Shown: one piece after another, positions 1,718 through 3,875 of the stretch
How the letters are laid out: every line of letters begins with the position of its first letter
How positions within the stretch are numbered: the first letter of the stretch is position 1
Assembly (NCBI GenBank): GCA_017999985.1
Contig: JAGNKU010000005.1
Coordinates: forward strand, 62,001 to 126,000
Direction of reading: 5' to 3'
DNA: 64,000 bases
Source: Phycisphaerae bacterium
GTDB lineage: Bacteria > Planctomycetota > Phycisphaerae > UBA1845 > Fen-1342
Program-made: the position numbers and the translations under genes
The notes under the pieces: generated by a model
The model's database searches: none
What the model was told of the DNA's origin: nothing
What the model saw: only the letters and a program-made list of their open reading frames with translations

Positions 1718-2065
1718 CTACGGTCGGCCCCCGCCCAGCAGGTCACCCATGCCCGGCAGGTTCAGCCCGCCAGTGAGCTCCTGCATCTCCTTCTGCACGG
1801 CGGCCCGGCTGCGATTGACGGCATCGCGGACCGCGGCGCAGGTCAGGTCCTCGAGCATCTCGACGTCGCCGGCCTGGACCAGCGCCGGGTCGATCTTCAG
1901 GGCGACCATCTCGCCGCGCCCGTCGACGGTGGCCTGCACCTGCCCACCCCCGGCCTCGCCCACGAACCGCGCCGCCTGCAAGCGCTCGTTCATGTCCTGC
2001 ATGCCCTGCTTGATCTGGCCGGCGTTCTTCATCAGGTTCATGATCTGGCCGAGGTTTCCGAACAT
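1718..2065 (-). CDS. ybaB: YbaB/EbfC family nucleoid-associated protein
   Basis: A 115-residue protein starting MFGNLGQIMNLMKNAGQIKQ, the typical YbaB N-terminal helix, followed by VGEAGGGQVQATVDGRGEMV and KIDPALVQAGDVEMLEDL, which form the conserved core. YbaB/EbfC proteins are small dimeric DNA-binding proteins of the nucleoid. The ATG lies only 3 bases after the dnaX stop codon, so the two are translationally linked. The dnaX-ybaB pairing is conserved across bacteria and supports the call. Confidence 0.95.
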   Translation of the reverse strand: MFGNLGQIMNLMKNAGQIKQGMQDMNERLQAARFVGEAGGGQVQATVDGRGEMVALKIDPALVQAGDVEMLEDLTCAAVRDAVNRSRAAVQKEMQELTGGLNLPGMGDLLGGGRP

Positions 2066-2068
2066 GGC

Positions 2069-3646
2069 TCACTCCGCAAGGGGGTCCGCAACGGTCGGGG
2101 CCGCAGCCCGCCGCTCGACATGAATCAAAACTCCGTCAAAAAGCTCCAGCGCCTGCCGTACCAGCGGATCCTGCTCCACCCGCCGCCGCTCCTCAGCCGA
2201 GATCTCGCGCCGGACGAGCTCGCCGGCGGGCGCGGGGGCTGCAGCCGGCGGCGTTTCCACCGACTGATAGTCATCCGGAATCTGTGTCAGGCCGTCGTGC
2301 TCCACGTCCGGTTCGTCCAGCGATGGCAGGTTCGGTCCCGAGCGCCGGACAACATCCACTGGGGGACCGACCTCTGGTCGGTCAGGCGACAGGCCGGAGG
2401 CCTGTCCTCCAGGGCCGGGATGCATAACCTTAGCGCTCGTTGTGTGAACGGGGGGACTTACCGCCGGCCGGACGGGCGGGAGCTTTTTTTTTTCGCCACC
2501 GCTGTCAGCCGCGGCCGGCACCTGGCGGAGCAGTTGCTCGATCGACGCCCACGCGTGCATCCGCGCGATGCGCACGAGCACGGCCTCCGTCAGCGCCCGG
2601 CCCACGCCACTGTAGCGCACGTTGCGGCGCAGCTCCTCCAGCATGGCGATCATCTGCACGTAGTGCGACAGCTCGAAACGCTGGCTGAGCGCGACGTACG
2701 CATCGCGCGCCCCGGCTGGCACGTCCACCATCGCCGCATCCGGCCCGCAGGTCCGCACAAGCAGCAGCGTTCGCGCGATCTCAATCGTGTCGTTACAGAA
2801 AACCTCCAGCCCCTGCCCGGCCCCGAGGATGCCGTCCAGCTCGCTCAGCAGCGCGGGCACGTCGCCCGCGGCGGCGTGCTGCAACAGGCTGAAGATGCGT
2901 TCGTCCTGGGCCGGCGGAAGCAACTCGTCGAGCACCGCCGCACTCAGCTTCTGGGGCGACACCGCGAGCAGTTGGTCCAGAATGCTCAGGGCGTCGCGCA
3001 TCGAGCCGTTGGCCAGCCGCGCCACGCGCTGCACCACCGCCGGCTCAGCCTGCGCCCCCTCGGCGACAGCAATCTCCGCAAGACGCTGCGCGATCGCCTC
3101 GGGGCCGATGTTGCGGAAATTGAAGCGCTGGCAGCGGCTCTGGATCGTGGCCGGAACCTTGTGAATCTCGGTGGTGGCGAGGATGAACTTGACGTGCTCG
3201 GGCGGCTCTTCGAGCGTCTTCAGCAGCGCGTTGAACGCGCCGGTCGAGAGCATGTGCACTTCGTCGATGATGTAGACCTTGAAGCGGGCCCGCGCCGGCC
3301 GGTAGGCGGTGTTGCTCCGCAATTCGCGAATGTTGTCCACGCCCGTGTTGCTGGCCGCGTCGATCTCAAGCACGTCGACGTCCTGCCCTTCGGCGATCGC
3401 CCGGCAGACGTCGCACTCGCAGCACGGCGTGGCGGTCGGGGCGTCGTATTTCAGGCAGTTGAGGGCCTTGGCCAGGATGCGGGCCATGCTCGTCTTGCCG
3501 ACGCCGCGCGTGCCGGTGAACAGGTAGCCGTGGTGGATCCGGCCGACCTGGATGGCGTTGACCAGGGTCGTGGCGATCGGCTCCTGGCCGATGACCTCGG
3601 TGAAGGTGCGGCTGCGGTATTTGCGGGCCAGGACGGTATATGCCAC
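2069..3646 (-). CDS. dnaX: DNA polymerase III subunits gamma and tau
   Basis: The clamp-loader ATPase of the replisome, 525 residues. The start is a GTG at 3646-3644 giving MAYTVLARKYR. The AAA+ module holds Walker A GTRGVGKTS (45-53), a zinc site at Cys64, Cys75, Cys78 and Cys81, Walker B IIDEVHML (126-133) and LLKTLEEPPEHVKFILATTE. Domain III runs to about residue 375. The coding strand then carries GAA AAA AAA AAG at codons 385-388, a run of ten A residues that is a likely slippage site. Past it lie about 137 residues of low-complexity, Pro-rich tau-like tail. The full frame would be tau; frameshifted products would be about 395 or 405 residues. The SRP RNA gene lies just upstream and ybaB just downstream. 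Confidence 0.97.
   Translation of the reverse strand: MAYTVLARKYRSRTFTEVIGQEPIATTLVNAIQVGRIHHGYLFTGTRGVGKTSMARILAKALNCLKYDAPTATPCCECDVCRAIAEGQDVDVLEIDAASNTGVDNIRELRSNTAYRPARARFKVYIIDEVHMLSTGAFNALLKTLEEPPEHVKFILATTEIHKVPATIQSRCQRFNFRNIGPEAIAQRLAEIAVAEGAQAEPAVVQRVARLANGSMRDALSILDQLLAVSPQKLSAAVLDELLPPAQDERIFSLLQHAAAGDVPALLSELDGILGAGQGLEVFCNDTIEIARTLLLVRTCGPDAAMVDVPAGARDAYVALSQRFELSHYVQMIAMLEELRRNVRYSGVGRALTEAVLVRIARMHAWASIEQLLRQVPAAADSGGEKKKLPPVRPAVSPPVHTTSAKVMHPGPGGQASGLSPDRPEVGPPVDVVRRSGPNLPSLDEPDVEHDGLTQIPDDYQSVETPPAAAPAPAGELVRREISAEERRRVEQDPLVRQALELFDGVLIHVERRAAAPTVADPLAE
2484..2493 (-). other. A10 slippery run in dnaX (candidate tau/gamma switch)
   Basis: On the coding strand ten consecutive A residues fall in codons 385-388 (Glu-Lys-Lys-Lys). 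With one extra A, or a -1 ribosomal shift, the frame reads KKK-APARPAGGKSPRSHNER and stops at 2432-2430, giving about 405 residues. With one A fewer, the frame reads KK-SSRPSGRR and stops after about 395 residues. A short inverted repeat (CCGCC at 2479-2475 and GGCGG at 2465-2461) starts just downstream. Slippage on A-runs in dnaX is established for Thermus thermophilus (transcriptional) and Escherichia coli (ribosomal, A AAA AAG). That it works here is inference. Confidence 0.6.
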
Positions 3647-3751: not shown

Positions 3752-3875
3752 AGTGCCCGAGGCTCCAGCCAGGTTGACGCTGCACGTGGGCCGTGCCGGG
3801 TGGGCTGCTACCTTCCGGTCCTGACCCGTTGTCCGACCGACGCACTGCACCGGCCCAGCCGTCACCTCGGGCAAC
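3752..3875 (-). ncRNA. ffs: Signal recognition particle RNA, 4.5S type
   Basis: On the minus strand the core reads GGTCAGGACCGGAAGG followed by TAGCAGCC (3826-3803), the diagnostic asymmetric loop and GGAA tetraloop that bind Ffh. The ends pair as TGCCCGAGG (3873-3865) with CCTCGGGCA (3762-3754), giving a closed rod of about 124 nucleotides. That fits the short form without an Alu domain. The gene begins 8 bases after the motB stop codon and precedes dnaX. A weak -10-like TAAGAT overlaps the motB stop, so it may have its own promoter or be cut from the motAB transcript. Proximity of SRP RNA to dnaX is seen in many bacteria. The exact ends are estimates. Confidence 0.95.

Follow-up and report, generated by a model that had tools for sequence, protein, structure and literature searches.

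The dnaX gene in the window, the whole stretch of 64,000 nucleotides of Phycisphaerae DNA that was analysed, carries a run of ten adenines (A10) that is very probably a programmed transcriptional slippage site of the Thermus type, from which both tau and gamma would be made. The reading of this run as a tau/gamma switch, advanced in the original prediction, is supported by the position of the run after domain III, by its conservation whatever amino acids it encodes, by selection that closes both alternative frames with stops, and by relatives whose tau lies in a slipped frame and can be reached only through a slip. The features concerned are listed below.

2069–3646, minus strand: dnaX, beginning with GTG and encoding tau (525 aa) in the templated frame; above cut-off for the NCBIfam models NF004046 (454.6 bits) and TIGR02397 (421.2 bits)
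2484–2493, minus strand: A10 run, the candidate slippage site, dnaX codons 385–388 (GAA AAA AAA AAG; direct sequence)
2458–2460, minus strand: TAA stop reached on losing one A, predicted gamma of 395 aa (read from the sequence)
2430–2432, minus strand: TAA stop reached on gaining one A or by a -1 ribosomal shift, predicted gamma of 405 aa (read from the sequence)
2069–2482, minus strand: tau-specific tail, a proline/alanine-rich linker and a conserved C-terminal segment DPLVRQALELFDGVLIHVERR, absent from gamma
1718–2065, minus strand: YbaB/EbfC family gene (TIGR00103), downstream of dnaX and outside the switch

Direct sequence bore out the A10 that had been placed at codons 385–388. The plus strand is T10 at 2484–2493, and the coding strand reads GGC GAA AAA AAA AAG CTC. 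It had also been claimed that gain of an A would give about 405 residues and loss of an A about 395, and in silico translation gives exactly these lengths (A11, 405 aa, 44.0 kDa; A9, 395 aa, 43.0 kDa); the templated product is 525 aa and 56.8 kDa. The predicted short products differ in their tails, which carry SSRPSGRR (A9) and APARPAGGK (A11). The alternative-frame stops fall at 11 and 21 codons, counted from the first codon of the run. Pfam domain III ends at DnaX residue 375 and the run starts at codon 385, which places it directly behind the clamp-loading part of the protein.

In the proposed mechanism, RNA polymerase would realign the rA:dT hybrid on the T10 template, producing dnaX mRNAs with 9, 10, 11 or more A's. 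Messages with 10 (or 10 ± 3n) A's would be translated normally into tau of 525 aa and 57 kDa. The remaining messages would reach a stop within 11–21 codons and yield gamma of 395 or 405 aa (43–44 kDa), a truncated protein predicted to retain clamp-loader domains I–III and to lose the tau tail. Slippage by the polymerase of this organism, the ratio of the two products and the functionality of gamma are inferred.

The dnaX run is the sole A10 on either strand of the entire 5.23 Mb genome (5,230,191 bases), in which a pattern search found 12 further runs of A8–A9. About 0.1 A10 is expected at the base composition of the genome. A lone A10 is thus unremarkable by itself, and it is the sameness across relatives that is remarkable. 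In the window's family the run is present in all 25 dnaX genes that cover the site (the family has 24 genera; GC contents are 62–71%); 24 share a run of exactly ten in one phase and one has A9 in another phase. The comparison of the A run and early stops in relatives that the original prediction proposed therefore came out as conservation, and absence of the run from relatives is ruled out by the family and class surveys. A homopolymer sequencing error is likewise ruled out, as the same A10 recurs in independent genomes. In 10 of 27 family genomes there is no A10 other than that of dnaX. Two further records match family members at the dnaX site: JAGPEO010000247.1 (Phycisphaerae bacterium) has the same sequence as L029, and JALHOX010000317.1 matches L045. 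In L041/L161 of family f1 the run is A9, and one of the alternative frames does not stop for 89 codons. The stop-to-stop dnaX frames of L037 and L041 (family f1) reach far upstream, to 720 and 993 aa; the GC-rich sequence ahead of the start codon probably just happens to be open.

The survey was extended to 156 dnaX genes from 27 families of Phycisphaerae, many of them from draft MAGs. A10 was found in 98, A9 in 23, A8 in 2 and no run in 33, counts that are not independent because the genomes are related. A11 or longer was found in 0/156. The limit of ten is about the size of the RNA:DNA hybrid of the polymerase. The run lies mostly at codons 382–425 and occurs in all three codon phases, with at least 21 phase changes on a tree of the DnaX N-terminus. 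Since the peptide changes with the phase, it is the nucleotide run that is conserved and not what it encodes. Given the amino acids, the median probability of the all-A codon choice is 0.02 per gene; the synonymous counterpart of the run in the window gene is GAGAAGAAGAAG.

These results bear on the possibility that no recoding takes place and the run simply follows from a lysine-rich linker behind domain III, the linker serving for charge or for contact with DNA. Within the family the run does always encode a lysine-rich peptide. However, AAG would serve as well, and elsewhere in the genes AAA accounts for a median of 34% of the lysine codons (20% for the window dnaX). Shifts of phase also change the residues on either side and how many lysines are encoded. 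The linker would also leave unexplained the stops in both frames and the slipped-frame tau of 15 genomes described below. It is extremely improbable for the window gene, and for the class it is refuted by the phase changes and role swaps.

Slippage at the DNA level, with cells switching among A9, A10 and A11 alleles, was also considered. Homopolymers of this length do mutate, and population mixtures are invisible in assemblies. Yet the length is fixed at A10 in all but one of the 25 family genes and never exceeds ten in the class. In family f21, A9/A10 differences keep phase 2 and so look like edge substitutions rather than indels. Tau is moreover expected to be necessary in every cell. Phase variation is accordingly very improbable.

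Transcriptional slippage would change the length of the message in both directions, and the frames on either side of tau were examined for stops in a set of 100 genes whose tau is templated. Neither alternative frame stays open beyond 10 codons in 77/100 genes, where resampling of synonymous codons according to the usage of each gene predicts 16.6; for 25 codons the count is 96/100 and the prediction 28.3. At other start points in the same genes joint closure is 6.4% (10 codons) and 26.9% (25 codons). Taken singly, the A-1 frame closes within 10 codons in 89/100 genes and the A+1 frame in 85/100, where about 35 are expected for each. Joint closure in the window gene alone has p = 0.03 under the synonymous null. 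Ribosomal -1 frameshifting gives no reason to expect selection that closes the A-1 frame, whereas transcripts varying in length both ways would.

Frameshifting of the E. coli type would take place at A_AAA_AAG within the run and yield the gamma of 405 aa, the A-1 stop being incidental. The heptamer is in phase in the window dnaX, and the A+1 frame, equivalent to a -1 shift, closes there. In many class members, however, A_AAA_AAG is disrupted by another phase or by the next base; phases 0 and 2 are both frequent, as is a C or T after the run, and a heptamer requires neither ten A's nor changes of phase. Furthermore, the A-1 frame, which such frameshifting never reads, is closed just as strongly as the A+1 frame (89 and 85/100).

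In 17 genomes the templated frame itself stops 4–14 codons past the start of the run, and in 15 of these the roles of the frames are seen to be swapped. An HMM of the C-terminal segment, built from the 100 templated-tau genes, placed the tau tail in A+1 for 13/17 and in A-1 for 2/17 (L190 and L232). L162 is cut by the contig end, and in L267 the HMM signal is too weak to call. With gamma templated, and provided that the assemblies are right, these organisms depend on a frame change at the run to make any tau. On the tree there are at least 13 changes between templated tau and templated gamma. A swap is also found inside the window's family, in L160 (G015; 7 contigs, 99% completeness). The prevalence of tau in the A+1 frame (13 of the 15 role-swapped genomes with a located tail) is compatible with -1 frameshifting. 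Use of both the A+1 and A-1 frames points to transcription, by the criterion of Antonov et al. 2013 (PMC3711429). The only two A-1 cases, L190 and L232, are both from draft MAGs, in which an assembly indel is possible; in L190 codons 386 and 432 are concerned and there is an additional C9 downstream.

Ribosomal frameshifting in E. coli dnaX involves an upstream Shine-Dalgarno-like element, a downstream hairpin and one lysine tRNA (PMC5009743, PMC3711429). Downstream folding at the run sites of the class has a mean z of 0.04 (n=122) vs -0.18 for controls, showing no excess. Shine-Dalgarno-like motifs upstream of the run are not enriched (22/122 vs 84/610 controls, p=0.26), and none is present in GACAGCGGTGGC of the window gene. 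The short inverted repeat that had been noted downstream of the window run, around CCGGCCGG, is indeed there, but its proposed relevance did not stand. The 60 nt downstream of the run fold no better than shuffled sequence (z = +0.26), and the repeat was rejected as a stimulator. An Rfam scan detected no frameshift element and only an SRP RNA nearby. The genome of the window encodes both tRNA-Lys CUU and tRNA-Lys UUU rather than the single lysine tRNA of the E. coli type. Together with the closure of the A-1 frame, these results make -1 frameshifting an unlikely explanation for the window gene, although some of it may occur there, given the in-phase A_AAA_AAG.

Relatives with short sites do display such elements. 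In family f10 (L266, L268, L269, L271, L249, L258), L272 (f20) and L270 (f24), dnaX has no long run and instead has G_GGA_AAA or A7. At these sites the templated stop mostly follows immediately and the tau tail is in the -1 frame (HMM match in L249, L258, L270 and L272; by eye in the others). Hairpin folding has a mean z of -1.9 over 8 short sites, four of them closely related, and of -0.15 over 17 A10 sites with swapped roles (p=0.002). A GGAG-like motif lies upstream of half of the short sites. The short sites thus have the anatomy of -1 ribosomal frameshifting, which makes the long-run sites look like cases of polymerase slippage. Judged from this anatomy, part of the class seems to have exchanged polymerase slippage for -1 ribosomal frameshifting.

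The run is not indispensable, as 33 class members, mostly of families f4, f7 and f10, are without it. Families f4 and f7 belong to the window's order (for example L134, L139–L143, L145, L150, L154, L156 and L157) and mostly have no run and one open tau frame. Gamma in these families may be made otherwise or be absent. In a review (PMC5009743), Caulobacter is cited as producing gamma by proteolysis of DnaX. This resembles the outcome predicted here in that a shorter form of DnaX arises, but it involves no slippery run, and it is possibly relevant to f4 and f7.

A wider reading, to which we give about even chances, is that A9/A10 in Phycisphaerae acts as a frame-neutral splitter. Slippage would be so efficient that the frame of tau barely matters, and the templated role would drift between tau and gamma, as the tree changes suggest, under a constant need for both proteins. 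In f10 slippage would have been replaced by -1 ribosomal frameshifting at G_GGA_AAA or A7 with hairpins.

By its sequence anatomy the window dnaX belongs with the known slippage dnaX genes. Transcriptional slippage in T. thermophilus dnaX (Larsen et al. 2000, as recounted in PMC1088944 and PMC5009743) involves A9 with tau templated and the other frames closed, and slippage itself has been measured there. T. thermophilus has two lysine tRNAs, which PMC5009743 links to its use of polymerase slippage. The window gene resembles that of Thermus in having a dnaX A-run of at least nine, tau templated in one ORF, near stops in both other frames, two lysine tRNAs and no need for sequence context. It differs in that the norm in Phycisphaerae is A10, the phylum is unrelated, the run is conserved class-wide with changing codon phase and lies, in the window, just after domain III, about 73% along the gene, and slippage is deduced here from sequence. 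Antonov et al. 2013 (PMC3711429) describe dnaX fs-genes with ten A's in which tau is made by recoding and transcriptional realignment is proposed; their set comprises 17 genes from 12 genera, including members of the Chlorobi. The role-swapped relatives (L160, L180, L184, L204 and others) fit this type, having A10, gamma templated and tau shifted. The window gene differs from it in having templated tau. With E. coli the window gene shares A_AAA_AAG and, by prediction, the same pair of products, whereas the Shine-Dalgarno-like element, hairpin and single lysine tRNA were not found for this gene and genome.

While the mechanism of dnaX slippage is already known, its use throughout a class, the role swaps and the local replacement by a -1 frameshift-like site appear not to have been described before. 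No account of dnaX slippage in Planctomycetes turned up in a search that covered the open-access literature. How general the bacterial need for both tau and gamma may be is still debated. A class that keeps the switch for its nucleotide sequence alone, with repeated role swaps and apparent changes of mechanism, speaks for selection on the output of both products. The class also offers natural experiments linking slippage efficiency, run length (up to 10) and product ratio. In genomes with swapped roles, gene callers will cut dnaX short or divide it.

Outside the class the run is patchier. A9/A10 near the same position was found in 9 of 62 sampled dnaX genes from other Planctomycetota. Further carriers are the cultured Gemmata sp. 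IIL30 (A9) and Aporhodopirellula aestuarii ICT_H3.1 (A10), as well as uncultured Schlesneria and Pirellulales records. In the window itself, the SRP RNA is of the small bacterial type (RF00169, 52.5 bits) and lies directly upstream of dnaX at 3764–3861 on the minus strand. The dnaX gene, ybaB and, farther along, recR are all on one strand.
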